Source: a virus. From it: DNA of 24,882 nt. The stretch lies in IMG/VR virus record IMGVR_UViG_3300044613_001699, positions 1-24,882 of that record. One strand, given 5' to 3'. Positions 740 through 24,882 of this stretch are shown piece after piece. The position numbers and the translations under genes are program-made. Each line of letters begins with the position of its first letter. The first letter of the stretch is position 1. Below the pieces are notes generated by a model, which saw only the letters and a program-made list of their open reading frames with translations, was not told where the DNA came from and did not search any database.

Positions 740-891
740 TTCGCCTCCTTGTTCTTGCGATTCCTTGTCCAATAACTGACAGCATAGTTTTTAACCTTCT
801 TAGCCGCCTTATGGATTTCTCCAGCCTCCTTCTTGGTGATGGTGTACACGCCGGTGCCGCCATCGATGATGCTCTTGATCCTATCGCTCAC
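736..891 (-). CDS. Small basic hypothetical protein (51 aa)
   Basis: This very short gene reads from GTG at 891 to TGA at 736. It has GAGGAGG seven bases before the GTG. It overlaps thyX by four bases upstream (GTGA) and the next gene by four bases downstream (ATGA). The product begins MSDRIKSIIDGGTG and has a lysine-rich second half (KKEAGEIHKAAKKVKNYA), so it is basic and largely helical. No family is recognised. The coupled overlaps and strong ribosome binding site make it a convincing gene despite its length. Confidence 0.72.
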   Translation of the reverse strand: MSDRIKSIIDGGTGVYTITKKEAGEIHKAAKKVKNYAVSYWTRNRKNKEAK

Positions 892-1538
892 TTGATGCCC
901 TCCTCAATTGCTGCGTGGATGTGTGGGAATTCAATCGCGAAGATCGTGTCGCGGATAGCTTCGGCGATCTGACGATGCTCTTTCTGCGTACCCTTCGCGC
1001 ACCGCTGCTCCAGATAATGAATCCATGATCGAATGTTGCCAGTCATGTAGAGTGTAGTCTGCGTACAGAGCGGCAAGACCATTCGCGCCGTCTCGCGGCT
1101 CACGCCTTCCCTAAGCAACGTCCGATAGGTTGTGAACGCAAGTTCAACAGACTTAGCAACCACATCCATGGCCCACTCCTGCGGATACATGTCGCCGCTT
1201 CCTTGACGATTCGCTCTGTCCTGAGTGCGAAGTTCAATCGGTTCAACCTCGTCGCACGGCGCATAGCGTTGTGAAAATTCTTGGAAGCAAAAGCTGCGAT
1301 GCCTGATAATCTGAGCGGATATGGCGCGGCTTGTCTGAATCTCGACCGTCATACTAGCCTGCTCAAAGATGCTCCAGTGGCCGTTCTTGATACAGTAGGC
1401 CAATAGCTTTGGAGCGGTCAGCAGACTCATCTGATTGCTCGGATTACTGACTCGCGCTGCGTAGGTGATGAAATCGGATGCGGTCAAAGCGCCGTCACCG
1501 ACAATTGGTTTCGTGATTGCTGCTAGTTTTACTCTCAT
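888..1538 (-). CDS. thyX: Flavin-dependent thymidylate synthase ThyX
   Basis: Converts dUMP to dTMP using methylenetetrahydrofolate, NADPH and FAD, supplying thymidylate for phage DNA synthesis in the cytoplasm. At 216 residues it has the usual ThyX length. The diagnostic RHRx7S motif is present at residues 79-89 (RHRSFCFQEFS). GHWSIFEQ (53-60), the SRETARMVLP region (147-156) and TGNIRSWIHYLEQRC (166-180) also match the family. It lies at the distal end of the recombination operon and overlaps the next small gene by four bases. The start context is TTTGTATCCATG with no Shine-Dalgarno; TAAAAT eight bases before the ATG could be a -10 box for a leaderless message. Identification is secure; the promoter is inference. 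Confidence 0.96.
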   Translation of the reverse strand: MRVKLAAITKPIVGDGALTASDFITYAARVSNPSNQMSLLTAPKLLAYCIKNGHWSIFEQASMTVEIQTSRAISAQIIRHRSFCFQEFSQRYAPCDEVEPIELRTQDRANRQGSGDMYPQEWAMDVVAKSVELAFTTYRTLLREGVSRETARMVLPLCTQTTLYMTGNIRSWIHYLEQRCAKGTQKEHRQIAEAIRDTIFAIEFPHIHAAIEEGIK

Positions 1539-1603
1539 GGATACAAATTTTAGGTCTTAGTTTCGAGCGTTATCGCGGAATGCGCTCCCCTCCGTGTTGA
1601 GGA

Positions 1604-2041
1604 TTAGAACGGCTTCGGATCAAGGTCGTCGGCATCGACTTGAGCAATCGGAACCTCGCGCATGTTTTTGATGCGGAGAGTCTTCTTCGTCTCACCGTTG
1701 ACTTGGTACTCCTCGGAGCGAGCGGTGATAAGCAGCTCCAATCCGATCATCGTTTTGAGGAACGCTGCGTAGCTGCCCTTGGTGCCAAGGAAGTCCACTT
1801 GAGTGCCATCGGGAACGTTGTGCTTCGTTGCAGCAACGAGCTGATTGACGCGGAACCAGACATTCTCCTGATTGATGTAGCGGTCCGTGATGCTCGCTCC
1901 GTCTTCAGTTTTGAACGTAACCTTGCAGACCTCGCGGCCCTTGGCATCGAGGGTTTCCTCGACCTTGGCGACAGTGACGGTGTAATCGCCTTCGGCATCG
2001 ATGTATCGGCCTCCGGCATCCTTGCGGTTTACTTGGAACAT
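1604..2041 (-). CDS. Phage single-stranded DNA binding-like protein (DUF669-like)
   Basis: Probably binds single-stranded DNA during replication and recombination. The 145-residue protein has a beta-rich body (DYTVTVAKVEET, VCKVTFKTEDG, RYINQENVWFRVNQL) and ends in an acidic tail finishing DADDLDPKPF. An acidic tail with a terminal aromatic residue is how SSB and T7 gp2.5-type proteins recruit partners. The overall pattern fits the DUF669 family, which is often found next to phage nuclease and annealase genes, exactly as here. The start follows the exonuclease stop by 13 bases without a clear ribosome binding site. The family match is from memory of the pattern; the SSB role is inferred from tail and context. 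Confidence 0.75.
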   Translation of the reverse strand: MFQVNRKDAGGRYIDAEGDYTVTVAKVEETLDAKGREVCKVTFKTEDGASITDRYINQENVWFRVNQLVAATKHNVPDGTQVDFLGTKGSYAAFLKTMIGLELLITARSEEYQVNGETKKTLRIKNMREVPIAQVDADDLDPKPF

Positions 2042-2054
2042 AATTTATTCGGTT

Positions 2055-2849
2055 TTAATTTTCGGATTTATTCAAGACCCACTTAGGGCATGAAAGGGTT
2101 TGTGTAGCGGTTGGATAGGCTGGCCAACTGTCCAGTGCGCGGCATTCGTGCAGCGTTGCGATTGCTTTGCAGCGAAGATTCTCGCCTGCCTGAAGCCATT
2201 CGGCGTCCAGCTTGTAAATGCCAATGGCGTACGGAGCTTTGCGCTCAACGGCAACGAAGATGAAGCTATCAGCGCCAGTCATCGCCATGTAGTGCGCGGC
2301 CTGAATATGGTAGCCGAACGATGCGATGGTTCGCAGGAAGGCTTCGGGCGATGCGTCGTCGGTCGTCTTGATGTCAACGAGCGTATGGCCTTCGATCCAC
2401 AGATCGGGACGTGCCTTAAGGGCGATGCCGGTTTCTTCGTCCTGAGCGAAGACACTCGCCTCGATCCGGTGGTCGAGATGAATGATGTCCCAGAACGGAT
2501 GGCGACGGACACTGTTGGCCACGCCTTGCACATCGATGTCTTCAGCGTGAGTCAGGTGGATGCGGCTCTTGTGCTGCTCCTTCCACTGCTTTCCTTCCTT
2601 CGTACGTCCGTCGATGTCCGGCGGAACAACAGCGACGACTTGCGAGTAGAGTTGCGGCTCCAGCACAGCGGTATGAATCGCCGTACCCATCTGCATCGAC
2701 TTCGTCGGCTCCTGATGCTCCTCTAGTGCGGCTTTGTAATGAGCCGGGGACTTGAGGATCTTGGACATCATCGACTTAGAGAGAGCATCAACGGCGTGAT
2801 ACTTCTCCGCTGGCATGTCGAGATTGACGTGTTGGTTGAGAATGCTCAT
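2055..2849 (-). CDS. PD-(D/E)XK exonuclease, RecE/DUF3799-like
   Basis: Likely 5'-3' double-strand DNA exonuclease that makes the 3' single strands used by the neighbouring annealase. Seen in the 264 residues: GTAIH at 55-59, KARPD at 145-149 (metal-binding D), VDIKT at 158-162 (the D/E-x-K lysine) and Y180 followed by QAAHY at 183-187. These occur in the order typical of RecE C-terminal and lambda-exonuclease-type nucleases. The N-terminal LSKSMMSKILKSPAHY segment is also typical of phage members of this group. The start overlaps the annealase stop as ATGA, so the pair is translationally coupled. This is confident for the superfamily and inferential for strand polarity. Confidence 0.88.
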   Translation of the reverse strand: MSILNQHVNLDMPAEKYHAVDALSKSMMSKILKSPAHYKAALEEHQEPTKSMQMGTAIHTAVLEPQLYSQVVAVVPPDIDGRTKEGKQWKEQHKSRIHLTHAEDIDVQGVANSVRRHPFWDIIHLDHRIEASVFAQDEETGIALKARPDLWIEGHTLVDIKTTDDASPEAFLRTIASFGYHIQAAHYMAMTGADSFIFVAVERKAPYAIGIYKLDAEWLQAGENLRCKAIATLHECRALDSWPAYPTATQTLSCPKWVLNKSEN

Positions 2850-3652
2850 TCGGTGGGCGGGTTAGCGAACGTCTTAGCCTTGGAGATGAAGCTGTCAGGA
2901 TCGGCGACGATCATGTTGGCCACCTTCGTGGATACATCGCGGAAGTTCTGGCCTTCCTTGATCAAGTTCTTGCTGACGAGGAACGCGTTGGCGATATCAG
3001 AATGTGGCTCAAGAATCTGCTCTAGCTTTTCAACGAGCGAGAAGGCTGGTTCCGGCGTCACATTGACCGTCTGGCGCGTCGTAGCGGTGATGGTGGGTGT
3101 TGACGGCGCAGCAAAATCAGCAGCCTCCTCCGGGGTATAGACGCCAGCAACAACTTCAGGTGCGAGCATTCGAATAGCCTTGGAGATGCAGCGCGCACGA
3201 AGCATAGCTGCCGGATCTTTCTGCCATCCAGAACCAGCCTTGGCAGGAAGCAATCCTGCGATTTTGGCGTCCTCGGTCGTAAATCCGATTTCGCATTCGT
3301 TGCCGTCGAATTTCCAGACTCCGATAGCAGCAGTCGAATCGAACTGCTTCCAAATGACCTTACCGCCCCGAGTCCGATATCCGGCGAGCATGGCGTCTGA
3401 GCGCATCGTCAACGAGCCGTTGACCAGATGAAACTCTCGCTTGAAGTCGAACGGAGTCTTGCGAGTGGCTAGGCATTCAAGGGCGATCATGTTGCCTTGC
3501 TCGTCCTTCTGACAGTTGAAGACTCCGCTTCGCGCAATCCACGATCCGAGTTCCTTGACCGCTTCAAGCGATGTTCCGATGCGGGAGTAAAACTCTCCGT
3601 CAGGACTGACTGGCGGTTGCGTTTGCGTTGTCGCTAATTGGTTGCTGCTCAT
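2846..3652 (-). CDS. RecT-like single-strand annealing protein
   Basis: Anneals complementary DNA strands in phage recombination, working with the exonuclease encoded next. The 268-residue protein has a RecT-type core with FKREFHLVNGSLTMRSDAML and WQKDPAAMLRARCISKAIRM followed by LAPEVVAGVYTPEE. That last region, an arginine-rich helix then APxVVxGxYTPEE, is characteristic of RecT-family annealases. A threonine/proline-rich linker (about 185-205) joins a C-terminal helical part. The first 53 bases overlap the 3' end of the HTH gene in another frame. The start has only a weak purine run (AAGAGA) before it. Confident. Confidence 0.85.
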   Translation of the reverse strand: MSSNQLATTQTQPPVSPDGEFYSRIGTSLEAVKELGSWIARSGVFNCQKDEQGNMIALECLATRKTPFDFKREFHLVNGSLTMRSDAMLAGYRTRGGKVIWKQFDSTAAIGVWKFDGNECEIGFTTEDAKIAGLLPAKAGSGWQKDPAAMLRARCISKAIRMLAPEVVAGVYTPEEAADFAAPSTPTITATTRQTVNVTPEPAFSLVEKLEQILEPHSDIANAFLVSKNLIKEGQNFRDVSTKVANMIVADPDSFISKAKTFANPPTE

Positions 3653-10978: not shown

Positions 10979-11016
10979 TACGATACCCCCCTCAAAAATT
11001 TTCCGTCTTTTTGACC

Positions 11017-11553
11017 ATGTTAAGTAAAATTAAAATTGGTCAAGTTATTTCTCTCAATCAAGCTGAGAGGAAGTTGGCCCACTTCGTAGCCAAGAATCGC
11101 AACGGCAATAACCGTCATTTCAACACTACGAACTTAAAGATAAGCACGGATGACCCTGCGACGGTGGATCTGGAGGGCGTATGCGGCGAGATAGCCTTCT
11201 GTAAGCTATTTAATGTCTATCCCGACATCGACACGGATCGCGAACCTCCGCACCCGCTCTACGACGCGATTATCCCGCCTATCCCTCCGGGCATTCGCAT
11301 CGATGTGAAGACGACCAAATACGAGAATGGGAAGCTACTGGTCGATGCGCGCAAAGGCTCAAAGACCGACGGCGTGGATTTCTACGCTCTGATGACCGGT
11401 CAATTCCCCGGTCCGTATACGTTCAGGGGATTCATCGCGAAGGAGCATATCATCCAGCCGCACAGAATCGGAACGATCATCAAGGGATACAAAACGTACA
11501 TTGCCGAGCAAAGCGAACTCATCGACGGCATTCCCGATCAAGACTTATTCTGA
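11017..11553 (+). CDS. PD-(D/E)XK-like nuclease (178 aa)
   Basis: Probably a DNA endonuclease of the restriction-endonuclease-like fold. The 178 residues show the classical order: an acidic helix LEGVCGEIAF (E53, E58), LYDAII with D83, then RIDVKTTKY carrying D96-x-K98, then a beta strand KLLVDAR and a helix or strand region DFYALMTGQF. A later segment YTFRGFIAKEHIIQPHRI ends the fold. The first ATG of the frame (11017) is used. It stands between the terminase-like gene and the capsid gene, suggesting a packaging-linked nuclease, host DNA degradation or a resolvase role. The fold call is inferred from motif spacing. Confidence 0.65.
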   Translation: MLSKIKIGQVISLNQAERKLAHFVAKNRNGNNRHFNTTNLKISTDDPATVDLEGVCGEIAFCKLFNVYPDIDTDREPPHPLYDAIIPPIPPGIRIDVKTTKYENGKLLVDARKGSKTDGVDFYALMTGQFPGPYTFRGFIAKEHIIQPHRIGTIIKGYKTYIAEQSELIDGIPDQDLF

Positions 11554-11752: not shown

Positions 11753-12991
11753 ATGGCTTGTCCCAATGTCTTCAACGCCTTCGCCGTAGCGACTGAGTCG
11801 CTCGCGCAGGACGTTTATAAACGCGCCTCGTATCGCTCGATGTGGCTCAATATGATTGAGCGCGGAGAGTATCCTCAAGGTACTGGCTTGACCCAGACCT
11901 CGTTCACCACCACTTCCATCGAGCCGACTGCGGCTGAGGAGTGGTCGGCTATCACGCTCGCCAGTGGCGAGAACGGTGGCGCTTGCGATGTCACTTACAG
12001 CGAGGTTCCGGTCGGCTATAATGCCGTTACTTGGAGTCCTGAGCGTTTCGCCCTCAAAGGTCCGCTCCTGTGTAAGGACGATCTGACCTTCGACCATCGC
12101 GTCGAGGCGTTCTTGCGCGTGTACTTGGAGAAGCTCTCGATCCGCGCACAGCGTTCATGGGAGACTCGCTATCAGAACACCTTCGCCAAGTTCGCCATCA
12201 AGGCAGTGGCCGACTCGTCCTTTACTCAGGTCGAGACGATTCCCTCTGGCGTGAATGAGTTCCCGTGGATTCAGACCGGATCGGCTGGTCAGGCGCTCAA
12301 TCAGTCCACCTCTGAGTTGACTCAGGAGATGCTCGATGTCGCGGCTGCTACGCTGATTCGTAACGGTGCGACGAATCCTGATAGCTCTGGCTTCATCTCG
12401 TACAGCAGCGATGGTCCGGTATTTCCGCTATATATCGGCTTGGAGGCTTCGCAGCGTATCGCTCAAAACAACCCCGCGTTCCGCGATGACTTGCGCTTCG
12501 CTGATCAGGGCAGTGGCGCTGGTGCGGAGTTGCTCAAGCGGATCGGTGCGAACCGGGTGATTAAGAACTATCGCCATGTGCCGAATCTGTTTCCGCCCCG
12601 CTTCACCTATGCTGGCGGCAAGTACACGCTGGTGCAGCCGTTCACCAGTGCGAGCGGAACGAAGGGTACTGTGTTCAGCGTCAATTCGAGCTGGACGACT
12701 GCTCCGTACGAGGCTGCGTTCATCGTGACTCCGTATGTGTTCAAGAGCCACATCGTGCGGCCCGTGAATCGGGTTGGCGATCTTAGCTGGATGCCGACCA
12801 ACTACATGGGCGAGTGGCAGTGGGTGACGGGTGCCTACAAGCTCGATGTGGATTGCGCCGATCCGCTGGAGAAGAAGGGTCAGCATTATGCTGAGTTCGT
12901 TCACGCTTCGGAACCAATATTCACCAACCAAGGAATGACGATCATCTTCCGTCGTTGCACCGGCGCGCTGACTCAAATCATCTGCTCGTAA
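11753..12991 (+). CDS. Major capsid protein, HK97-type
   Basis: Main head subunit. The 412-residue protein has an N-terminal helical segment (VYKRASYRSMWLNMIERGEYP), a spine-like region (VEAFLRVYLEKLSIRAQRSWE) and a long C-terminal half: FISYSSDGPVFPLYIGLEAS, ELLKRIGANRVIKNYRHVPN, LFPPRFTYAGGKYTLVQPF, APYEAAFIVTPYVFKSHIV and MGEWQWVTGAYK. The pattern resembles major capsid proteins of uncultured phages. It has no protease domain. The start has CTCAATATG and no Shine-Dalgarno. Two strong terminators follow the gene, as expected for a highly expressed product. Its scaffold and portal lie on the other strand, 4-12 kb away. Confident of capsid role, less of subtype. Confidence 0.85.
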   Translation: MACPNVFNAFAVATESLAQDVYKRASYRSMWLNMIERGEYPQGTGLTQTSFTTTSIEPTAAEEWSAITLASGENGGACDVTYSEVPVGYNAVTWSPERFALKGPLLCKDDLTFDHRVEAFLRVYLEKLSIRAQRSWETRYQNTFAKFAIKAVADSSFTQVETIPSGVNEFPWIQTGSAGQALNQSTSELTQEMLDVAAATLIRNGATNPDSSGFISYSSDGPVFPLYIGLEASQRIAQNNPAFRDDLRFADQGSGAGAELLKRIGANRVIKNYRHVPNLFPPRFTYAGGKYTLVQPFTSASGTKGTVFSVNSSWTTAPYEAAFIVTPYVFKSHIVRPVNRVGDLSWMPTNYMGEWQWVTGAYKLDVDCADPLEKKGQHYAEFVHASEPIFTNQGMTIIFRRCTGALTQIICS

Positions 12992-14198: not shown

Positions 14199-15218
14199 AT
14201 GTCAAAGCAAACCATCAATATCGGCGCATCGCCGAACGACGGAACGGGGACGCCGCTGCGGACTTCGTTCGATTACACCAACCAGAACTTTACGGAGCTA
14301 TACACGGCTCTTGGAGGCGGCGTTGGTCTTCCCGGTGCGACGACTCAGGTCATCTTCAATGATGGCGGAACGAATCTGGCAGGCGATGCAGGTCTGGTTT
14401 ACAACAAGACAACCGATGCGCTGACCGTTGCCGGACTCGTTACCGCTGGCTCCGCAACGATCACTGGCGATCTGACGGTGGACACAAACGTGTTGAAGGT
14501 TGATTCGACGAACAATGCGGTGGGTATTGGTACAGTAGTCGCTCCAGTATACTCATCCAAGCTGCGAGTGGAGGGTGGTGTCGAGATTCACACATCCCAA
14601 GCGTTAAATATTCAACCCGGCAACACAAACCCTTACGAAATTGTCAACCGCAGCGCAGGTGGTTTTGCTTTTTACCCGACAGGTTCATCGTTGGGTCTGA
14701 CGCTGGCTCCGTCGGGGAACTTGTCTATTGCCAACGGTAACTTGGTAATGTCAACGTCCGGCAAAGGCATCGACTTCTCCGCTGTTACCGGCGGAACCGG
14801 AACGGCGACTGGGAACGTACTGAACGATTACGAGGAGGGTACGTGGACGATTGGACTGACGTTTGGTGGTGGAAACACAGGGCTAACTACAGCCTTAAAT
14901 ACTGGACGATACACAAAGATTGGAAGACAGGTTACTGTTTGCGGCCGTCTTGAACTTTCAAACAAAGGATCGTCTACTGGAGCAGCCGCTATAACCGGAC
15001 TTCCTTTTTCAATCGCAAGCGGAAACGATTCACAACAAGCAGCCAGTTTCAGGTTTAATGGAGTTTCCTACACTGGATCTTTTCAAGGGTACGGAGGAGT
15101 AAGCTCAACATCAATTAATTTGGAGCAAATATCAGAGGCTGGTTCACCTACAGATATAACTAATTCTAATTTTAGTAACGGAACCAGTATTCAGATTAGC
15201 TTCACCTACACCGTCTAA
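14199..15218 (+). CDS. Tail-fibre-like protein (339 aa)
   Basis: Likely trimeric fibre or receptor-binding protein. The N-terminus (INIGASPNDGTGTPLRTSFD then YTNQNFTELYTALGG) is a known phage fibre start. The middle has fibre-type beta repeats with LVYNKTTDALTVAGLVTAGS and ATITGDLTVDTNVLKVD. From residue about 210 (NVLNDYEEGTWTIGLTFGGG) a C-terminal knob-like domain common to phage fibre tips follows. Codon use and base composition shift to A/T-rich in about the last 340 bases (14880-15215), suggesting that the tip was acquired. There is no chaperone domain. Confident of the class. Confidence 0.82.
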   Translation: MSKQTINIGASPNDGTGTPLRTSFDYTNQNFTELYTALGGGVGLPGATTQVIFNDGGTNLAGDAGLVYNKTTDALTVAGLVTAGSATITGDLTVDTNVLKVDSTNNAVGIGTVVAPVYSSKLRVEGGVEIHTSQALNIQPGNTNPYEIVNRSAGGFAFYPTGSSLGLTLAPSGNLSIANGNLVMSTSGKGIDFSAVTGGTGTATGNVLNDYEEGTWTIGLTFGGGNTGLTTALNTGRYTKIGRQVTVCGRLELSNKGSSTGAAAITGLPFSIASGNDSQQAASFRFNGVSYTGSFQGYGGVSSTSINLEQISEAGSPTDITNSNFSNGTSIQISFTYTV

Positions 15219-16328: not shown

Positions 16329-16455
16329 GCCTGTGCGCCTCGCACAGAGCGTTAAGGCTAAGGTTTGGGTGGTTGACGCCGAAGGCAAAACGGTGCGTAG
16401 TAATAACCGCATCATCATCCACGAAGGCTGGTATGCACTACCAAAGGACAAATGA
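16228..16455 (+). CDS. Candidate o-spanin lipoprotein (Rz1-like), 75 aa
   Basis: Overlaps the i-spanin candidate by about 100 bases in another frame. MRKNNPILSAICLLALMSM then SVSCAS looks like a type II signal peptide with Cys as the lipid-modified residue, although the lipobox is atypical (Ser at -3). The mature part, YVPHGEPVRLAQSVKAKVWV then DAEGKTV and IIIHEGWYALP, is a short beta-rich module rather than the proline-rich Rz1 tail. An ATG 15 bases upstream (16213) is an alternative start. If lipid-modified it would sit in the outer membrane. A membrane lipoprotein of other role is possible. Confidence 0.6.
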   Translation: MRKNNPILSAICLLALMSMSVSCASRVIYVPHGEPVRLAQSVKAKVWVVDAEGKTVRSNNRIIIHEGWYALPKDK

Positions 16456-16604
16456 GCAATAACGCACCGTACAAAGGTTCACCGTCTGTTAAGGGGAGTG
16501 GCAGCGGACCTTACAAGCAGTCTCCTCCGCCGAAGCCTCCGGTTAAGCCTGCTCCAAGTGGAAGCGGTCCTTATAAAGGTGGCAGTGGTCCGTATCGTAA
16601 ATGA
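16452..16604 (+). CDS. GSGPYK-repeat small protein (50 aa)
   Basis: The ATG overlaps the preceding stop. The product is almost only glycine, serine, proline, lysine and tyrosine: GSGSGPYK, then a proline-rich stretch (PPPKPPVKPAPSGSG), then GPYK and GGSGPYR. Three GSGPY(K/R) copies are visible. It is basic and surely disordered. It is the last gene of the plus-strand group. It could bind a membrane, peptidoglycan or RNA, or be a tether; no function is known. Confidence 0.55.
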   Translation: MSNNAPYKGSPSVKGSGSGPYKQSPPPKPPVKPAPSGSGPYKGGSGPYRK

Positions 16605-16615
16605 TTCAAAGCAAA

Positions 16616-16648
16616 ATCCCCCGCTGGTAATGAAACCAATCGGGGGAT
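16616..16648. terminator. Bidirectional terminator between converging operons
   Basis: ATCCCCCG (16616-16623) pairs exactly with CGGGGGAT (16641-16648), with an inner TGGT/ACCA. The plus strand continues AATTGTTTC, the minus strand TTTTGCTTTG, which is the better run. It separates the rightward genes, ending at 16604, from the leftward scaffold gene, ending at 16669. Confidence 0.78.
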
Positions 16649-16668
16649 AATTGTTTCTACGCGTAAGG

Positions 16669-17850
16669 TTAGCGTCCTAACGACTTCAGGACGTTCGTGA
16701 CGAAGTCCTCGCTCTTCGACCCATTCGCACTTGATGCACGGGAGCCGCCTGCTGTTGCTTTCGAGCTAACACCGGGTTCACTGCCTCGATACTTCGCTAG
16801 TTCGGCTTGTAGGCGCTTGTTTACTTCAACCTGAGAGTAGAGAAGCTCGCGGTATTTCGGCGCGGCAGCGGCCCATAGAGCGGCTTTGGCGAGGTCTTCT
16901 TCGCTGTTCTCGCCATTGAAGATCTGTTGGGCGAGGCTAAGTCGGCCAGTCAGTTCCGTGTTCCATTCGTCGTCGTTCTCACGCGGCTCAAAGATTTCCA
17001 GCGCACGCGCATTCTCGCTGACCTTTGTCCATGTTTTATTGGCCGACTCCAATGCAGCGCGAGTGCCTTCCTCGTTGTCCTGCTGGTACTTCGAAATGAT
17101 CGAGTCGTAGTCGGACTTCGCTTCGGACATCTCCGCAGACTTCTCGCCGTTAATCTCGTCGTACTTGACGATTAAAGCGCCAAGCTTCGCCTTCTTAGAG
17201 GGCGAAAGACCCTCAACGATGTCGTCGATCTGCGAGTTGCGATAATCGTTCTCAGGGGACTTGAGTAGGCCAACAAGCCTGTCGCCATCCGTGCCAACGA
17301 CAGATTTCATCGAGTCGAACACGCCGGTAATCTTGGCTTCGTACTTTTTGACGAAGTTGGGGTGGCGCTCAATGTCGAGGAGTCGAACACGTTCGGAAAG
17401 CGTGTCGCGCTCCTCCTGCAAAGTCTTGAGCTGAGCTTCTAAGTTCGGATTGGCAACCTTGCCAGACTTCATCTCCTCAAGCTGCTTGGCCAACTGCGCC
17501 TTCTCTTCCTTGATCTTGCGGAAAGCATCAGCGGCCTTCGTAGACTTGATCGACTCAGGGATGCCAGAGTCATCAGTAGCCGAGGAATCCTCGGTAGCTG
17601 GAGCCTTCTCCTTCGGACTGAACATCCGCTCGATATCCATCTCAGACTTGCTGAGCTTGGTATTCGCTTCGGACTTAGGCTGCGTTTGCTTCTTCTGCTT
17701 AGGCTCCTCGGTTACTTGCGAAGCTTTTGCACTAGCCTCTCCAGCGGCGGCATCCTCAAGAGTGTTAGCCTTGAAAGATTCGATGAAGGAGCTTTCGAAA
17801 TCAGGCGTTTGCGCGGAGTTAACGGTCGGTGAGTTCAGTGGTTCTTCCAT
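16669..17850 (-). CDS. Scaffold-like head assembly protein (393 aa)
   Basis: Probable scaffold that guides capsid assembly and leaves the head. The N-terminal 100 residues are low-complexity and disordered (Ser/Glu/Lys-rich). A coiled coil at about 108-160 follows (RKIKEEKAQLAKQLEEMKSG and LKTLQEERDTLSERVRLLDI), then a helical body (ERHPNFVKKYEAKITGVFDS). The C-terminus ends in a Gly/Ser-rich stretch and SEDFVTNVLKSLGR, a likely capsid-binding helix. Long disordered and coiled-coil layout with an ordered tail is typical of scaffolds. It is in the portal operon, although the capsid gene is on the other strand. Confidence 0.75.
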   Translation of the reverse strand: MEEPLNSPTVNSAQTPDFESSFIESFKANTLEDAAAGEASAKASQVTEEPKQKKQTQPKSEANTKLSKSEMDIERMFSPKEKAPATEDSSATDDSGIPESIKSTKAADAFRKIKEEKAQLAKQLEEMKSGKVANPNLEAQLKTLQEERDTLSERVRLLDIERHPNFVKKYEAKITGVFDSMKSVVGTDGDRLVGLLKSPENDYRNSQIDDIVEGLSPSKKAKLGALIVKYDEINGEKSAEMSEAKSDYDSIISKYQQDNEEGTRAALESANKTWTKVSENARALEIFEPRENDDEWNTELTGRLSLAQQIFNGENSEEDLAKAALWAAAAPKYRELLYSQVEVNKRLQAELAKYRGSEPGVSSKATAGGSRASSANGSKSEDFVTNVLKSLGR

Positions 17851-17856
17851 AAAATG

Positions 17857-18132
17857 TTAGTATTGTTTTTCAAATGTTGCTTCAGGTTCTCTCGTTGTGT
17901 CGGTTACTGCAAGTTTTCGAATGTTTTCAAGGCAATGCGCGTAGCCAGCGGTTACACCGGCAGCGAAAACAATGTCCGATTCCTTGCTTCCTTGGGAGGG
18001 CATAGGCACCGGCATCGACTCAGCCACGATGCGTAAAGCCATCCGAAGAATCGGATTTCGCAAAATAATCGCAAGTTCGCCCTGTTGGCCAGCCGTTGTC
18101 CATTCGAGAATGTCTACCTCAGGCAAGTCCAT
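17857..18132 (-). CDS. Small protein next to scaffold (91 aa)
   Basis: Unrecognised. The product contains LPEVDILEWTTAGQQGELAI, ILRNPILRMALRIVAESM and DIVFAAGVTAGYAHCLENIR, a helical protein common in size to head-associated phage proteins. The start is uncertain: ATGs at 18132, 18147 and 18189 are in frame. The first overlaps the upstream gene least (14 bases) and has AAGGAG 15 bases away. It lies six bases before the scaffold gene. A head-related role is inferred from position. Confidence 0.6.
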   Translation of the reverse strand: MDLPEVDILEWTTAGQQGELAIILRNPILRMALRIVAESMPVPMPSQGSKESDIVFAAGVTAGYAHCLENIRKLAVTDTTREPEATFEKQY

Positions 18133-19474
18133 CAGGCTTTTCGCCATCTCCTTGCGGTTCTTCGTCGAGCCTCTTAGCCAGTTCATCATACTTTGATTTC
18201 TTGTTTCGTTTTAGTTTATGTCTCTGCGGAATTGGATCGAGAACTTCGTCGAGTTTGATTGGGTTCTCTTTGTTGACGACGTCACGCTTGGGTCGAATCA
18301 CCTTCGTCACCTCAAGCAAGTCGGCCAACGGAATCTTGATGTAACCGCAGTCTATGTCGTTGATTCCGTACGAGACGACGAACTTATTCTTTGCGCTATC
18401 GAAGAATGCGCCGCATGGGAAGACGACCGCAGGCAATCCCGGCCACCAATCCTGCTGATTCGTTCCAGTCAGAAGCGGCAGCGTCGTCATTCGGACAATG
18501 CGGAAAGGCGGCTTCGCTTCAAAAGCGTAGGCACCCATGTAGTAACGGCGCTTCTTGTTGATCCACGGCAGCGAGCTATGGAAGAAGGTCCAGTACAAGC
18601 CGTCGCATAGGATCGGATTGGAGCCTCCGCGCACCTCGCCAAACTTCCAGAGCGGATTGAACTCGTCGGTGACGTACTCCTCCTCCTTCTCTAAACGCCC
18701 ATTAAGGCGTACAACGACGTGTGGATTGGCCGAATACACCATGTGTGGCGCGTTATCGTGGACGAAGTAGAGCCAGTTCTTCTCATGCCCATCGTTGATC
18801 ATGGCCTGCGCGTAGTTGTTGCCGTAGATCATGTCGAAACGGCCTACGTTCAGGAAATGCTTGTCCAGAAGGAACATTCCTTGGTGCGCGTAGCTCTTGA
18901 ACGGGACGAATGTGCAGCACGCAAGACCGTACTTGTCGCCGAATTTTAGGACGCGAGGGTCTTCGAACTGTTCGAGGGGATAATGGGAGATTAACTGGGT
19001 CAAAGACTTCTTTGTGGCGCGAAGATCCTGACTCAGCTCGAAGATGACGATGTCGTTCTTCTCGATGTAGACATCCTCGTCCTTCTCGCGCTTGTTACGG
19101 CAGCGACGGGCAAAAAGCATGATGCGACCATCTGGTTCGAGCATGATTGCCGGGTTGAAGTAGTACGTCCCCGTTTCCTGCGGCAGGACGATTTTGCCAG
19201 TCTCCCAATCGGTTTGTTCACTCAGCTTGGGGACGTCATTTTTTGCGTAGCTCATTAGAAACTCGGCAGCGAATTTGATTTCATCGTAGAGGGCGAGCCA
19301 ATGATCGCGCTCCTCGCGGACCTCGGTCAGATGCTCGTCATGTTCTTTGGTTCGAATCTCAAGCGTTTTGCGAAGGTCTTCGATTTCCTGAAGAAGATCC
19401 GCAGGACCATCGCCACCCGTTGCAAATCGTTTGAGAGCTTTAAGGGACAGGCTTCGGATTATGTCTTTCATCAT
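18119..19474 (-). CDS. GH130-like five-bladed beta-propeller protein (451 aa)
   Basis: Likely acts on oligosaccharides: GH130 enzymes are phosphorylases or hydrolases of mannosides and related sugars. Motifs in order: FNPAI (106-110), FEDPR (170-174), EKNW (231-234), RGGSNPIL (282-289), FFHS (297-300), YYMGAYAFEAKPP (311-323), FPCGA (352-356) and SYGINDIDCGYIKIPL (368-383). This is the repeating propeller signature of GH130-type proteins. An N-terminal 80-residue helical part includes a coiled coil (LLQEIEDLRKTLEIRTKEHD) that could mediate assembly or virion binding. The fold is sound; whether it cleaves, transfers or only binds sugar is unknown. The catalytic acid cannot be assigned. Confidence 0.75.
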   Translation of the reverse strand: MMKDIIRSLSLKALKRFATGGDGPADLLQEIEDLRKTLEIRTKEHDEHLTEVREERDHWLALYDEIKFAAEFLMSYAKNDVPKLSEQTDWETGKIVLPQETGTYYFNPAIMLEPDGRIMLFARRCRNKREKDEDVYIEKNDIVIFELSQDLRATKKSLTQLISHYPLEQFEDPRVLKFGDKYGLACCTFVPFKSYAHQGMFLLDKHFLNVGRFDMIYGNNYAQAMINDGHEKNWLYFVHDNAPHMVYSANPHVVVRLNGRLEKEEEYVTDEFNPLWKFGEVRGGSNPILCDGLYWTFFHSSLPWINKKRRYYMGAYAFEAKPPFRIVRMTTLPLLTGTNQQDWWPGLPAVVFPCGAFFDSAKNKFVVSYGINDIDCGYIKIPLADLLEVTKVIRPKRDVVNKENPIKLDEVLDPIPQRHKLKRNKKSKYDELAKRLDEEPQGDGEKPDGLA

Positions 19475-20100
19475 GGATACAAGTTTGTGTTCTCCTGCGT
19501 AGCTAACCTTGGAAGAACCCCGTAGAAGTTCATCCTTGGCATTGAATCGACCAGCATCTGGATGTCGATTGGTGCCCAGACCTTTTGATTCGTTTCGAGG
19601 AGCTTACAAACGCCCTCGTAATTTACAAGATATGCGTGGGTACACATGCCTCTCACCAGTTTGTAGAGGTTTGATGCGATGTAACCGTGGTCTTCGATGG
19701 GGTCGGTGCAGCAACTTCCGAGGTAGACGACGTGCCAATCATTCGGAAGGAACTGAAGGTTGTCATTGGCCTTTGCTTTCCAGTTCTCGTCAAGAAACTC
19801 AACGTCATCCTCGACGATCAAGAAGGTGCGATGATCGGTTACCTTCGATTCAACCATCCACTTGATGGCCGACCAGACGGAGAAGTGACTAAGTCCGGCG
19901 ACGATGGTCTTGCACTTCGCCTTCTCCTTCTCGCGAGTGTGATAGTAGTCGGTTGAAATGCCGCAGTTATGCGAACGAAAGCCGTAAATCGGAACCGCAT
20001 CGATTCCGAATGACTTCATGTATCTGATGCACCGCTTCTCTTTTTCGCCCTCAGGTTTTGAGACGATGAAGGTCGGTGTATTCTCGAAATCAACTTTCAT
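19471..20100 (-). CDS. Glycosyltransferase family 25 protein (209 aa)
   Basis: GT25 enzymes transfer sugars such as galactose in lipopolysaccharide cores or to collagen-like proteins. Seen here: LSHFSVWSAIKWMV (70-83), the metal or sugar-nucleotide motif FLIVEDDVEFL with EDD at 97-99, THAYLVN (154-160) and APIDIQM (176-182). These match the second GT25 in this operon. The ATG at 20100 overlaps the methyltransferase stop (ATGA); its own last codons (NLYP) form the TTGTATCCATGA start of the propeller gene. At 209 residues it is a single compact GT-A domain with no signal peptide, so it acts in the cytoplasm. Confidence 0.85.
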   Translation of the reverse strand: MKVDFENTPTFIVSKPEGEKEKRCIRYMKSFGIDAVPIYGFRSHNCGISTDYYHTREKEKAKCKTIVAGLSHFSVWSAIKWMVESKVTDHRTFLIVEDDVEFLDENWKAKANDNLQFLPNDWHVVYLGSCCTDPIEDHGYIASNLYKLVRGMCTHAYLVNYEGVCKLLETNQKVWAPIDIQMLVDSMPRMNFYGVLPRLATQENTNLYP

Positions 20101-20687
20101 CGGTTTGGAAGGATGTAGATGATGCCACGTCGCGCACCTGTGCATCGGCTCGGATGATTGTAGTAGTAGCTATAGCCATAACGCTGAGTTAAAGTTTTAG
20201 CCCTATAAATAGCGTCTAGCTTCTCTTTAACGTATCCAAAACATATTTCATGCTCTTTGTAAGCGTCGTACCCAAGTTGTCCAGTGGGTTCTTTGAAGTC
20301 GTGGATTGCGATGACTGGATGAATATCGAACCGATTGATTGCCTCAAGCTCTTCGAGAAGCGGTAGATAGTCGTTCCAATGCGCGTCGAGGAAGAAGATT
20401 GTGTCGTGTCCAACCCCGTGATGCGGGATGAACCAGTTCATGCAGGCATCGCTGCTGCCTTCGAACATCTCGACGTAGACATTCTCGCGCTTGAACCGTT
20501 CCTTCGCCTTCTCAACCCGATCATTGTCGAGTTCGCAGGAAACCGTCTTCAGGAAGTTCTTGGCCAACCAGATGGTCGTATCACCTTCGTGCGTTCCTGT
20601 TTCGACCGCAGTCGTCAGCTCGAAGCGTTCCTTGAGGTAAAGGAACTCCTGCTCAATGAATGTGTCTCCGTTGAATGGTGAACCCAT
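20097..20687 (-). CDS. SAM-dependent methyltransferase-like protein (196 aa)
   Basis: Probably methylates a sugar or a small molecule. The Rossmann-type motifs are AVETGTHEGDTTIWLAK (27-43) for AdoMet binding, VSCELD (49-54), FFLDAHWNDYLPLLEEL (98-114) and VIAIHDF (125-131). This pattern belongs to the class I methyltransferases found in O-antigen and capsule gene sets. It shares an operon with two GT25 genes and a second methyltransferase, so sugar O-methylation is a reasonable inference. The stop overlaps the following GT25 start. The C-terminal tyrosine-rich YGYSYYYNHPS is unusual. Confidence 0.75.
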   Translation of the reverse strand: MGSPFNGDTFIEQEFLYLKERFELTTAVETGTHEGDTTIWLAKNFLKTVSCELDNDRVEKAKERFKRENVYVEMFEGSSDACMNWFIPHHGVGHDTIFFLDAHWNDYLPLLEELEAINRFDIHPVIAIHDFKEPTGQLGYDAYKEHEICFGYVKEKLDAIYRAKTLTQRYGYSYYYNHPSRCTGARRGIIYILPNR

Positions 20688-20691
20688 AGTT

Positions 20692-21294
20692 TTAGTCGGC
20701 TAAATTCATTCCCTCTTGGTCGGCGACACGCGGGAAAATTGTGAAGCAGTTGAGGTGATGCTTGCTGTTGAAATACATCTGCAAATCAATCGGAGCGTAA
20801 ATTTTCTCGTTCGTCTCGATCAACGTCTTCAGCGCCTTCTTTCGGACAACGTAGCAGTGGGTGCAGAGCGGCATCCCCTCGAACAGATTGGAATCATACT
20901 CACGGCTAATCTTGCCGTGAACGCAGCATGAGCCGGGATAGAGCAAATCCCAGTTCTCAGGAAGCTTGGTTAGAGCGCGTTCAACCGTCTCGCGCCAGTT
21001 CGGCCTGAACAAGATGTCATCCTCAAGCACCATGACCATCTCAGGAGTGTTTGGATCAAACTCTAGGGCGTTCCAGAGCATCCAATGCGACATCGTGCAT
21101 CCGACATGCTTGTGGCAGATTGTGTATCCAGAGCCGGGGTTATCGACCTCGTACGGAATGCTGGCCTTTAGCCCAGACTTCTTCCCATCAAGACCATAGA
21201 AAATCCGATAGCTATTGATTCCAGCGGATTCAAGGTTTTCTTTTAAGCGCGGGATGCGAGAAGAACCTCGCACTGTGATAACGACCGTTTCCAC
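20692..21294 (-). CDS. Glycosyltransferase family 25 protein, second copy (200 aa)
   Basis: A GT25 protein with VVITVRGSSRIPRLKENLES (substrate side), GCTMSHWMLWNALEF (65-79), MVLEDDILF with EDD at 91-93, PGSCCVHG, THCYVV (145-150) and APIDLQM (167-173). The same stations occur in the other GT25, so the two are paralogues that diverged and may add successive sugars. It starts with GTG at 21294, five bases after the methyltransferase stop. Acceptor unknown: virion protein, host lipopolysaccharide or another glycan. Confidence 0.87.
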   Translation of the reverse strand: METVVITVRGSSRIPRLKENLESAGINSYRIFYGLDGKKSGLKASIPYEVDNPGSGYTICHKHVGCTMSHWMLWNALEFDPNTPEMVMVLEDDILFRPNWRETVERALTKLPENWDLLYPGSCCVHGKISREYDSNLFEGMPLCTHCYVVRKKALKTLIETNEKIYAPIDLQMYFNSKHHLNCFTIFPRVADQEGMNLAD

Positions 21295-21298
21295 GGGG

Positions 21299-21916
21299 TT
21301 ACTTTAACTTTCGATAGATGGCAAATACGCTCTCGTTAAGGTCAAATCGCGAAATAAATTCGCAACGCTTGAGGACGAACTTGAGGGCTGTCTGAGTTGA
21401 ATCCCAGTTCACATCGTCCATGACGAGATATCCGCCAACCTTTAGCTTTGGGAGCCAGTTAACGACATCGCTCGTAGACGGCCATTCGGCGTGATTGGCA
21501 TCGATGTGAACCATGTCCATTTCCGGCAGAAATCGTGAAGCGTCCCACGAAGACATACGGCAGAACTGAATGTTCTTCACGACTCCAGCGCGAACTGTGT
21601 GTCCAACAAAAGCCTCGTAGTGCCTGTCCAGATCAAGCGTAGCCCACCACTCTTGATTCGCAGTAGACTCGTCATCGATACAGTCCTCTTTCTTCCAAGA
21701 GTCGATGGCGTAAACGGTTCCGCTTCCGTTGAGCTTGCATGCGTAGGCCAGAGCAAGCGTTGACTTGCCTTCAAAAACGCCTACTTCAGCAATCCTTTGA
21801 GGCTTTGATTCGAGGACAAGCTTGGCAATTTCAAGCCCCTTTTTCGGATCGCACCATCCTCCCATTTTAGGGAACTGATCGGCGATGAATTGAGCGACAT
21901 TTTGTTCGTTTTCCAT
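21299..21916 (-). CDS. SAM-dependent methyltransferase, Methyltransf_24-like (205 aa)
   Basis: A class I methyltransferase with RIAEVGVFEGKSTLALAYAC (41-60) for AdoMet, VYAIDSW (68-74), VHIDANH (136-142) and GGYLVMDDVNW (161-171). The HIDANH motif and the GGxxxxDD motif resemble small-molecule or sugar methyltransferases such as cephalosporin hydroxylase-like or FkbM-neighbouring enzymes. It is the first gene of the sugar module, seven bases or less after the portal stop (GGATAAAATATG). The acceptor is unknown; association with GT25 genes makes glycan methylation likely. Confidence 0.82.
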   Translation of the reverse strand: MENEQNVAQFIADQFPKMGGWCDPKKGLEIAKLVLESKPQRIAEVGVFEGKSTLALAYACKLNGSGTVYAIDSWKKEDCIDDESTANQEWWATLDLDRHYEAFVGHTVRAGVVKNIQFCRMSSWDASRFLPEMDMVHIDANHAEWPSTSDVVNWLPKLKVGGYLVMDDVNWDSTQTALKFVLKRCEFISRFDLNESVFAIYRKLK

Positions 21917-21919
21917 ATT

Positions 21920-24169
21920 TTATCCCTGACGCGACAAGTTGGATTCCGCAGTTGCATTCGCACGTTGAATATCAGCGGTTGTCTTCGCATTCCGGCGCGA
22001 CAAATCTGCCATCGCCTTCGTGTTCTGACGCTGGATGTTGGCCATAGTCTCGGCGTTCTGGCGAGCGATTTTCGCCTGAACCTCCGCGTTCATCACAGCA
22101 GTACGAGGATCGGAGCCTTGCTGAATTGCCTGAGCTTGCTGCTGCTGAGCCATCGCTTGCTGCTGCTCTTGGAGCATCTGACCAAGCTGCTCAACGGTCT
22201 GCCCGAGCATTCCGAGCTGCTGGACGTACGCATCGACCTGCTGCTTGCGCGACGGATCGGTTGCGAGCCTCTGGATGTGCTGCTGAACATGCTGACCAAT
22301 ACCCTGCATGAAGAGCATGATTTCCTCTGGGTTTCCGCCACCTTGAAGCGATGACGCCGCTTCATTCGCCGCGCCAAGGTGAGTCTCGATGTGGATGATC
22401 TGATTCTGCGTATCGGTGACGAGCGGCATATTGCCCTGACGCAGCGAGGCGTGTTCGAGAACGGCCAGAGCGGCTTGATCCTGCGTACGAGACGACTGGA
22501 GCTGAGAGGGCAGATAACGATCCACCATCTGTTGGCCAACCTGTGCGGCAATATAGTCCTTGAGCAGGTTAATTTTGCCGCCCTCTGGAAGCGAACCGGA
22601 CAACTGTAGAAGCGAACCGAGGAGTTGTTGCTTAGCGAACTGTGAACCTTGGCCCACAGTCCTAGTCGCCTCAACGTAGTCGATGTCGATCATCGCCTGC
22701 ACGGGAACGCCACGTTCTTTGCATCGGCGCTGGAACTCGATGGCGTCCTTATCGGACTTCGTAATCGGGTTCAGATTAGGATTCGAAGCGCGGTTGTACC
22801 GTTCCTCAAAGAAGGAATCGAGCTGAGTGTAATACCGGCTCAACTGCGTCTTACCGATGGCGGACTGCTGCGAGACGATTGCTTGGACTTCCGTCGCTGT
22901 ACGGGGGTTGCCCTGCGGCTTGTTGAGCGATTGGCGATACTGAGAGAGATTGCCTTGAAGAACATTTTCAAGGTCCGCATTGACCGCCATTGGAGCATCC
23001 AGAACTCCAGCAATATTCTGCTGAACGACTTCGTAATCTGGCGGAAGAATGGCATACGGTCCTTGCTGTACGACGCTTGTCTTGCTTAGCGCATTGGCGT
23101 TCAGGGGTCGGAATAGAATCTGAGTCCTCGCAAACGCGCTATCTACCATTGAGCAGCGAAGACGATTCTTTAGCTCCATCGGCTGAAGCATCTTGATGCC
23201 CAAGCCCTTTACACCGTGATGTTCGCCGTCGCCACGGTCGTAGTACATCGGATGAATGACCTGCTCCCATCGGCTGAACCGGCGAAGCTTGCGATACATG
23301 AAGCTCTCGCTGTCGCGTTCGTCGATGATTACATGGCTGATCTGACCATCGAATTCCTTGTAGAAAACGTGGCACATCAACACGACCTCGGAACGAGCGG
23401 AAAACGTGATGTCGTTTGAGCGAAGCTGCTTCTGGAAGAACTCCCAGTCGTACTGCACACCGGAGCGATACGGCTCGGGCATCGCCGCACGAATGCGCTG
23501 GCGGACATAATCAACATCCCAACCGGAAGCTTTTGCCGCCTTTTCGTCTTGGATCTTCTCGAACAGATCATCCACGCCCATGCGCGTGCGGACGCAGGCC
23601 ACCTTCCAGTCGCTTACGTTTGACTTGGTGCCGTCTGGGACAAGCAGATCCGTCGCCATGATGGCTTTGCAGCGCCAGTTGGTATTGTCCTCGAAGATCA
23701 GCGGACCATCGCCAATGAGGACCATCTCACGCTGCGAGAGCTGCATGATGTAATCGAAGTCCTTGTCGAGCTTCTGGAGCCGATCAAACTCCTCGGTGAT
23801 GATCTTCGACCATTCCTCCCGCTTATCCATGTCATTACCGTACGCGGTACGAATGTTTGTGTAGGTCGGAACCTCGGCGAACACGTCGTAGAAGGCTGAC
23901 ATTGCCAGCGTGAGGAACGCTTCCGACTCACGGAAGTTGACGTTGGTGCGGAACGCTTGGTTGTTGCGGCGCAGTTCTGCTGGATTGTACGGAGGATTTC
24001 CATCGACCAGACCGCGCAGCTTGGCTCGCGTACTATTACGCAGCTCATCAGCCATGATAAGCTTCTGAAAGATTTCGCGAGCGGATGCCGCGTCGGCTAT
24101 GCGCGTTTCAGGCGCTTTGCCGTCTTCGTTGATAGTTTCAAGCGGCAGTTGGGCTAGGTTTCCGTACAT
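21920..24169 (-). CDS. Portal protein (749 aa)
   Basis: Forms the dodecameric channel at one head vertex for DNA entry and exit. Size and pattern match large portals of podovirus-like phages: an N-terminal helical part (FQKLIMADELRNSTRAKLRG), TDLLVPDGTKSNVSDWKVAC, a stem or clip region (RFSRWEQVIHPMYYDRGDGE), then LQPMELKNRLRCSMVDSAFA and helices near EEGGKIN-type sequences (SGSLPEGGKINLLKDYIAAQ). The C-terminus is glutamine-rich (QQQ runs) and then has about four 11-residue repeats ending at the last residue, a long helical barrel. It overlaps the Cys-rich gene by 16 bases and starts without a Shine-Dalgarno. Confident. Confidence 0.85.
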   Translation of the reverse strand: MYGNLAQLPLETINEDGKAPETRIADAASAREIFQKLIMADELRNSTRAKLRGLVDGNPPYNPAELRRNNQAFRTNVNFRESEAFLTLAMSAFYDVFAEVPTYTNIRTAYGNDMDKREEWSKIITEEFDRLQKLDKDFDYIMQLSQREMVLIGDGPLIFEDNTNWRCKAIMATDLLVPDGTKSNVSDWKVACVRTRMGVDDLFEKIQDEKAAKASGWDVDYVRQRIRAAMPEPYRSGVQYDWEFFQKQLRSNDITFSARSEVVLMCHVFYKEFDGQISHVIIDERDSESFMYRKLRRFSRWEQVIHPMYYDRGDGEHHGVKGLGIKMLQPMELKNRLRCSMVDSAFARTQILFRPLNANALSKTSVVQQGPYAILPPDYEVVQQNIAGVLDAPMAVNADLENVLQGNLSQYRQSLNKPQGNPRTATEVQAIVSQQSAIGKTQLSRYYTQLDSFFEERYNRASNPNLNPITKSDKDAIEFQRRCKERGVPVQAMIDIDYVEATRTVGQGSQFAKQQLLGSLLQLSGSLPEGGKINLLKDYIAAQVGQQMVDRYLPSQLQSSRTQDQAALAVLEHASLRQGNMPLVTDTQNQIIHIETHLGAANEAASSLQGGGNPEEIMLFMQGIGQHVQQHIQRLATDPSRKQQVDAYVQQLGMLGQTVEQLGQMLQEQQQAMAQQQQAQAIQQGSDPRTAVMNAEVQAKIARQNAETMANIQRQNTKAMADLSRRNAKTTADIQRANATAESNLSRQG

Positions 24170-24783
24170 GGTCGTTTTTTCCAGCAGTGAGCCGGAAGGT
24201 TTTCGTTCTCTGTAGCGTCCGAGAATTTATGAAGGGTTTCAATGGGAAACCAAACCATGCTTCTGATAAAGCAACCGCAAAACTCGCAGCTTTGCAGGTT
24301 TTCGTCTACTGGAGTACTGCCGTGTTGAGAGAAAGTTTTGACAGCATCCTTTAGCACACGGGCGTTGCATCCGGTGCATCCAAGTGGCTTTCGATTGTAA
24401 ACGCAGGTCGAGCAGATGCTTGCGCGTCGATTTGCTTCCGCCTGATCCACCTTACCGCCGCCAACCGTAAGTCCGTGGAGAAGACTCATGCTGAATCGGA
24501 TGACGTCCCCGATCTGAAGCGATTTACGTCCCTCTGGCTTGGGAACATTAACTTCGTTGTAAGAGCAATCGGCACCGTTACGACACGCATATTCGGTGAT
24601 TAAATCGTCAAGGTTGCTCGGGATTTGAATCGCGTTTGCCGTGTAGTGATTGCGAACAAACTCATGGAGCTGCGCCCATGATCCTCCGGGTACTTCAATC
24701 CCAGTCTCAGGAATGCGGTAATGCCATCCGCCGGGGATGACCATGTGTTCGTTCAAAACTTTGTAACCAGTGGTTTTGCTCAT
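24154..24783 (-). CDS. Cysteine-rich phage protein (209 aa), zinc-binding likely
   Basis: Unknown role. The N-terminal half has GGWHYRIPETGIEVPGGSWA and SNLDDLITEYACRNGADCSY. The C-terminal half carries cysteine pairs: CSTCVYNRKPLGCTGC, CEFCGC and HCW, eight or more cysteines spaced like two zinc sites. Presence directly upstream of the portal suggests a head or packaging-related factor. The ATG overlaps the preceding gene's stop (ATGA). It may be a zinc-ribbon DNA-binding protein; that is inference. Confidence 0.7.
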   Translation of the reverse strand: MSKTTGYKVLNEHMVIPGGWHYRIPETGIEVPGGSWAQLHEFVRNHYTANAIQIPSNLDDLITEYACRNGADCSYNEVNVPKPEGRKSLQIGDVIRFSMSLLHGLTVGGGKVDQAEANRRASICSTCVYNRKPLGCTGCNARVLKDAVKTFSQHGSTPVDENLQSCEFCGCFIRSMVWFPIETLHKFSDATENENLPAHCWKKRPCTET

Positions 24784-24882
24784 GCTTCAATCGTTTCGTC
24801 GTAGTAAATTGAATCTGCGTCCTTCACTAGCTTTTCCCACACCTTATCCATCTTCGTGAAGCGCGGCTCTAAAACAGCAGTT
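24780..24882 (-). CDS. C-terminal fragment of a gene cut by the window edge
   Basis: Only the last 34 codons are visible, ending RFTKMDKVWEKLVKDADSIY then YDETIEA before TGA, which overlaps the start of the Cys-rich gene. The fragment is charged and helical. It is too short to identify. The position upstream of the portal is where a large terminase gene is often found, so that is a testable guess. Confidence 0.5.
   Translation of the reverse strand, partial: TAVLEPRFTKMDKVWEKLVKDADSIYYDETIEA

Follow-up and report, generated by a model that had tools for sequence, protein, structure and literature searches.

The question raised by this locus is why a run of small glycosyltransferase and methyltransferase genes lies among the packaging and head genes of a phage, and on what their products would act. 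The locus is part of IMG/VR virus record IMGVR_UViG_3300044613_001699, of which positions 1 to 24,882 were analyzed (hereafter the window, 24,882 nucleotides in full), and it is found between a gene for a portal-like protein and a gene for a protein resembling glycoside hydrolase family 130 (GH130-like). A preliminary description had read five consecutive genes here as one sugar and methyl module. Comparison with related phages showed that the genes between these two borders are exchanged from one relative to another, and this variation is a stronger finding than the five-gene set. We lean towards the interpretation that the portal-to-GH130 stretch is a swappable glycan-assembly slot, whose enzymes would make different methylated glycans, with the phage particle as their likeliest site.

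All five open reading frames (ORFs) of the proposed module were confirmed within 18119-21916, on the minus strand and in the order first described; together with the portal-like gene they are:

21920..24169, minus strand: portal-like protein of 749 amino acids (aa), fixed border of the slot, 85-100% identical to the relatives examined.
21299..21916, minus strand: MT1, an S-adenosylmethionine (SAM) O-methyltransferase of the Methyltransf_24 family (Pfam 8.5e-20, 72 bits, cut-off 26.3).
20692..21294, minus strand: GTa, a GT25 glycosyltransferase with a GTG start (Pfam Glyco_transf_25, PF01755, 5.6e-14, 52.9 bits, cut-off 24).
20097..20687, minus strand: MT2, a probable SAM methyltransferase (best Pfam match 0.0032, 18.6 bits, cut-off 27).
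19471..20145, minus strand: GTb, a GT25-like glycosyltransferase (Glyco_transf_25 1.9e-4, 21.8 bits, just below the cut-off of 24).
18119..19474, minus strand: GH130-like protein, the other fixed border of the slot (Pfam Glyco_hydro_130 4.6e-11, 42.7 bits, cut-off 26).

The families assigned earlier to MT1, GTa and the propeller (GH130-like) gene were each borne out above the Pfam cut-off. For the second GT25 and the second methyltransferase the outcome was mixed: GTb, 29% identical to GTa, has GTa's invariant residues though it scores just sub-threshold, but MT2 is below all cut-offs. Counted from the portal-like gene, the first genes are separated by gaps of 3, 4 and 4 bases, and GTb and the GH130-like gene overlap by 4 bases. 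The earlier statement that no gap or overlap exceeds five bases holds for these junctions but not for GTb/MT2, where the overlap is 49 bases as listed; an in-frame ATG at 20100, which may be the translation start of GTb, would give 4.

Relatives were collected by scanning IMG/VR with the GH130-like and the portal-like proteins (the best 80 of 137 and the best 80 of 161 confirmed loci, respectively). Of these loci, 137 contain both borders (the portal-like gene's end and the GH130-like gene's start) and gave 72 distinct intervals of 1,235 to 3,056 bases, in each of which the ordered gene families were read with tblastn and a set of reference proteins. The intervals fall into six recurrent cassette types (A-F) and four other combinations, the window being of type A:

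Type A, 27 of 72: MT1-GTa-MT2-GTb.
Type B, 17 of 72: GT32-MT3-MT1-GTa.
Type C, 8 of 72: GT2L-MT2-GTb.
Type D, 8 of 72: GT32-MT3-GTd-MT4.
Type E, 4 of 72: GT32-GTd-MT4.
Type F, 4 of 72: MT1-GTa.
Single combination in L053, 1 of 72: GT2L-MT1-MT2-GTb (a second contig, L375, was found later).
Single combination in L157, 1 of 72: MT1-GTa-MT2-GTb-MT4.
Single combination in L101, 1 of 72: GTa-MT2-GTb-MT4.
Single combination in L104, 1 of 72: GT32-MT3-GTd.

The cassette families beyond those of the window matched as follows:

GT32-like transferase: Gly_transf_sug, 5.2e-13.
GT2L, a GT7/GT2-like transferase: Glyco_transf_7C, 5.4e-5, barely above the cut-off.
MT3: Methyltransf_11, 3.7e-8.
GTd: GT25, 1e-23, 84.7 bits.
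MT4: Methyltransf_24, 5.5e-17, 63 bits, and TylF, 2.5e-7.

The exact set of the window is therefore not a unit, being present in only 27 of the 72 intervals, and the others hold different combinations of two to five cassette genes. Separate loss of members across relatives, which the preliminary description had named as refuting a five-gene unit, is frequent; what remains constant is the slot and its GH130-like gene. A GT25 and a methyltransferase, one or more of each, are present in every interval (72/72), and the slot genes are exclusively glycosyltransferases and methyltransferases. MT2 and GTb were never apart among the 72 intervals, and MT1/GTa, MT4/GTd and MT3/GT32 are usually together and sometimes split. 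Elsewhere in the group the GT25 score reaches 54.7 bits for the type-B GTa and 26.4 bits for the type-C GTb (cut-off 24). The G+C content of the cassettes is 0.41-0.51 by type, compared to 0.55-0.58 in the 2 kb upstream.

The flanks of the slot, in contrast to its content, are fixed. The GH130-like gene was present in 120/120 portal loci with at least 4.5 kb downstream, and the genes for a 110-aa protein and a scaffold-like protein were both present in 124/124 GH130 loci with at least 2.8 kb, these counts being of loci, so that one contig can count twice. For the borders, intervals with a portal-like protein sharing at least 96% identity with that of the window were compared; these 24 gave 195 pairs of unlike type. 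Mean identity over the pairs is 0.937 for the final 300 bases of the portal-like gene and 0.921 for the opening 300 of the GH130-like gene; in the cassette it is 0.395 over the 100 bases at the start and 0.345 over the 100 at the end. At the cassette start, identity is 0.86-0.90 where the pair shares a GT32-like first gene and 0.26-0.32 where the first genes differ. In 15-base bins, comparing the type A interval L002 with five others, identity falls from 0.93 to 0.33 (four intervals) or 0.60 (one) just past the portal stop codon; it climbs to 1.0 at the GH130 start codon, from 0.2-0.6 (four) or from 0.87 (type C, which shares GTb). The cassettes are thus swapped between sharp borders.

The exchange is also frequent. 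On a maximum-likelihood portal tree (65 of the 72 rows, 7 with incomplete portals being left out) at least 26 type changes are required, four of them to single combinations, and the GH130 tree (66 rows) gave 25. In 200 shuffles of the labels the mean was 36.6 changes (range 31-41); the smaller number observed indicates that the type is partly inherited and often replaced. Furthermore, two types occur in one metagenome in at least six cases, counted on the number in the contig name, which we take to be the metagenome id: 3300002835 (A, B), 3300043436 (B, D), 3300006802 (A+MT4, D), 3300031951 (A, D), 3300047557 (A, E) and 3300037042 (B, F). In the window, ThyX, exonuclease VIII-like and RecT-like genes lie consecutively at 888-3652 (minus strand), and these recombination genes of the phage could help cassette exchange.

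With more divergent members as queries, the matches listed stayed within this phage group, as each list held no more than the best 80; queries with the type-C transferase and MT4 gave 12 and 23 loci, and 35/35 carry the group's portal or GH130-like gene, in scans that need exact short patterns and so miss remote relatives. Among the cultured phages of INPHARED, the portal, GH130-like and capsid-like proteins had no match; GTa matched three records at 28-29% identity and MT2 two records at 36% identity over half its length. A 4.8-kb contig of the group (L195) is found inside a Nitrosomonadales metagenome-assembled genome (MAG), which is a weak hint to the host, or a binning error. It was the only locus with GH130-like relatives in bacterial genome contigs, and among 398 genomes of that MAG's phylum only that MAG was found, with a profile built on near-identical GH130-like sequences, by which remote homologues would be missed.

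Modeling, proposed earlier as a check on the GT25 active sites, was carried out for GTa with 26 group sequences and gave a mean predicted local distance difference test (pLDDT) of 91.9. Foldseek placed the model closest in the PDB to Mimivirus R655 (6.4e-14), human COLGALT1 (2.6e-13) and bacterial GT25 galactosyltransferases (2e-9), with a weak match to domain 1 of PBCV-1 A064R (2p73, E 4.2e-6, TM about 0.5), and in a viral structure library GT25s from phages and giant viruses lead its named matches; GTa is thus predicted to have the fold of solved GT25s. Residues E91 D92 D93, which form the acidic metal motif, as well as H146 and D170, are invariant across the 26 GT25-type sequences. In MT1 and MT4, D139, D167 and D168 are invariant across 12 sequences and are presumably the acidic metal residues, and the nearest solved relatives of MT1 are O-methyltransferases (3cbg, 4.7e-5). 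No membrane-like segment was found in the slot proteins (highest 19-residue hydropathy 1.49). An epimerase family was found in 0/12 relatives, with the control positive in 14/14, and the sugars would then come from the host.

From these observations we propose that each phage would carry a single cassette encoding two to five enzymes that are small and soluble, with at least one GT25 and one methyltransferase and, in some types, a Gly_transf_sug (GT32-like) or GT7/GT2-like transferase. Drawing on nucleotide sugars of the host, these enzymes would attach one to three sugars and methylate them, as if each transferase traveled with its own methylating partner (always for MT2 and GTb, usually for MT1/GTa, MT4/GTd and MT3/GT32). 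Recombination in the conserved flanks would exchange cassettes whole or in part, so that near-identical phages could make different glycans, while the GH130-like protein would be a fixed partner (hydrolase, transferase or sugar binder) acting on something common to all types. The earlier suggestion that a methylated glycan is made fits the tight packing of glycosyltransferases and methyltransferases with packaging and head genes.

As regards the acceptor, virion decoration is preferred on gene position. In 12/12 fetched relatives TerL (phrog_2, 1.4e-23) lies just beyond the window end, on the strand of the portal-like gene and upstream of it; the packing of the slot with TerL and the portal suggests late expression, which would make a virion protein the likeliest acceptor. 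Profile searches of family libraries gave no family match for the portal-like protein, and we infer its identity from its size, its C-terminal coiled-coil sequence and its place downstream of TerL. The earlier naming of both flanks was upheld to this extent for the portal, but the scaffold label rests on position. A scan of 16400-24882 found 2 promoter-like and 8 terminator-like sites, with 5.3 and 9.1 in shuffles, so there is no excess and the scan neither shows nor excludes co-transcription.

Some results weigh against glycans on the particle or against parts of the proposed pathway. No association was seen between cassette type and tail-fibre tip cluster (adjusted mutual information 0.04 in 50 pairs, a value reached by 88/500 shuffles), and relatives of types A, B and C share a capsid-like protein at 99.5-100% identity, so that no acceptor co-varies with type; a glycan varying in its outer part while its acceptor stays the same would fit this, and a target elsewhere would fit it just as well. 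MT2 is under every methyltransferase cut-off. The AlphaFold2 model of the GH130-like protein, built from 19 near-identical sequences, is of very low confidence (mean pLDDT 38.0). Finally, glycosyltransferase islands of pelagimyophages are read as modifiers of host lipopolysaccharide (LPS) in the sections available of one study (PMC7029224).

The last point bears on the rival that survives best, which we nevertheless consider rather unlikely: that the cassette alters the surface glycan of the infected host (lipooligosaccharide or LPS), excluding other phages or freeing progeny, with swapping that keeps pace with the surface types of the hosts. The Pfam GT25 model is itself labeled LPS biosynthesis, and the lack of a virion acceptor that co-varies with the cassette is as this idea would have it; but the slot sits with TerL and portal, its proteins have no membrane-like segment, so no flippase or lipid-carrier enzyme is seen, and in the small test above type is unassociated with the tail-fibre tip.

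A narrower form of virion decoration, to which we give little credence, has as its acceptor a fibre-like protein that carries collagen-type GXY repeats and whose gene is next to TerL, on the other strand. Collagen-like GPQGAAGTNGTNG-type repeats are present in 12/12 fetched relatives (e.g., L163:15876-17111, plus strand) and the GTa model is close to a collagen galactosyltransferase; yet the repeats are without lysine, similar ones accompany every cassette type examined, and likeness of fold does not fix the acceptor. A role in DNA modification, by which the cassette would glycosylate or hypermodify the phage genome and so protect it from restriction, is very improbable, for although the nearest named PHROGs are 'DNA methyltransferase' (MT1) and 'glucosyltransferase' (the glycosyltransferases), MT1 and MT4 resemble O-methyltransferases, the thymidylate-synthase/hydroxymethylase family (PF00303) was found in 0/12 relatives with the control positive in 9/14, and TET/JBP (PF12851) in 0/12, a count that carries no weight as its control was silent.

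For the GH130-like protein, the Glyco_hydro_130 match spans residues 86-391, the NCBIfam mannobiose phosphorylase models match at 1e-10 and 3.2e-8, both far below their cut-offs, and weak matches are obtained to Lin0857, TM1225 and a mannobiose phosphorylase (1.2e-5 to 0.005). It is 81-99% identical to its counterparts in 18 other sequences. As in solved GH130 members, a Glu-Asp-Pro-Arg stretch (with the invariant Asp) and a Tyr-Gly-x-x-Asp stretch align; unlike in them, His-Asp takes the place of the aligned His-Arg, and Ala or Tyr, according to the alignment used, that of the NKD lysine. An extra N-terminal stretch of about 80 residues, apparently helical by sequence, also sets it apart from the GH130 mannoside phosphorylases and mannosidases. 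In the sections available of one study, GH130 phosphorylases use three basic phosphate-binding residues and members without them are hydrolases (PMC4599007); the change of Arg to Asp would fit a hydrolase, not all three basic residues having been placed in the alignment.

The remaining genes around the slot and the candidate acceptors in the window are:

17857..18189, minus strand: conserved 110-aa protein without family match, between the GH130-like and scaffold-like genes; this ORF was missing from the preliminary list.
16669..17850, minus strand: scaffold-like protein, labeled by position only, without family over cut-off.
24154..24783, minus strand: 209-aa Cys-rich protein upstream of the portal-like gene, conserved in relatives, without confident family.
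11753-12991, plus strand: 412-aa major-capsid-like protein, without family match.
11011-11553, plus strand: DUF5843 protein (1.4e-9), just upstream of the capsid-like gene.
About 14300-15218, plus strand: C-terminal part of a tail-fibre-like protein, very variable, the 101 loci compared grouping at 50% identity into about 31 clusters that do not follow cassette type.

The capsid-like gene is on the strand opposite to the TerL, portal and scaffold-like genes in 12/12 fetched relatives. In the tail region of one relative, an ORF with a P-loop-like start (L164:1279-1824, plus strand) had been considered as a sulfotransferase, an idea dropped as no family supported it. The window is collinear with relatives of greater length, and one record is 99.8% identical to it over window positions 681-24882.

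Should the glycans be located on virions, these phages would offer a near-identical series differing in one small enzyme cassette, in which the role of particle glycans (shielding, adsorption, decoy) could be tested by cassette exchange alone, and glycan-type polymorphism, long known for bacterial surfaces, would be found on the phage side; glycosyltransferases with their paired methyltransferases would also become available for biochemical work. If the host surface is the target, the slot would be a compact late-operon version of host glycan remodeling. More tentatively, the locus might determine glycan type in a combinatorial way, much as O-antigen loci do in bacteria, with interchangeable transferase/methyltransferase pairs between two fixed genes, coexisting serotypes of the particle glycan and a conserved GH130-like protein handling the shared part; we consider this somewhat less likely than not.

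Among known systems, Gtr clusters for O-antigen seroconversion place a membrane flippase and a bactoprenol transferase beside the specific glycosyltransferase. The slots hold glycosyltransferase and methyltransferase families only, with a maximum hydropathy of 1.49, which speaks against a Gtr-type system. Mimivirus R655 is the best PDB match of GTa by sequence (8.4e-7) as well as by structure (6.4e-14), but it comes from a giant virus and is 16% identical in the structural alignment. The pelagimyophage host recognition cluster is likewise a variable island with glycosyltransferases inside the structural region; in the sections available it has a mean of 44.6 kb, tail fibres and GT8 as the most represented family (PMC7029224), whereas the slot is of 1.2-3.1 kb with only glycosyltransferase and methyltransferase genes. 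In mycobacteriophages Che8 and Rita, which have glycosyltransferase genes, glycans are reported on the major capsid protein; the glycosyltransferase genes of Maravista are near the genome 3′ end, and the sections available mention no cassette exchange (PMC11256854). In chlorovirus PBCV-1 (A064R, A061L), viral glycosyltransferase domains and methyltransferases build and methylate the capsid glycan, and mutations give antigenic classes (PMC9614988, sections available). The likeness lies in having both kinds of gene in a virus, here known from the genes; the chlorovirus, however, is a eukaryotic virus with other glycosyltransferase families, and no swappable slot beside a GH130-like gene is described in those sections. 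A slot of exchanged glycosyltransferase/methyltransferase sets beside a constant GH130-like gene was not found in the portions available of the open-licence PMC literature, subscription papers and preprints lying outside that search. By analogy, the slot would work like the capsid glycosylation of chloroviruses and mycobacteriophages, and sharp-bordered swapping beside a fixed GH130-like partner would be its new part.

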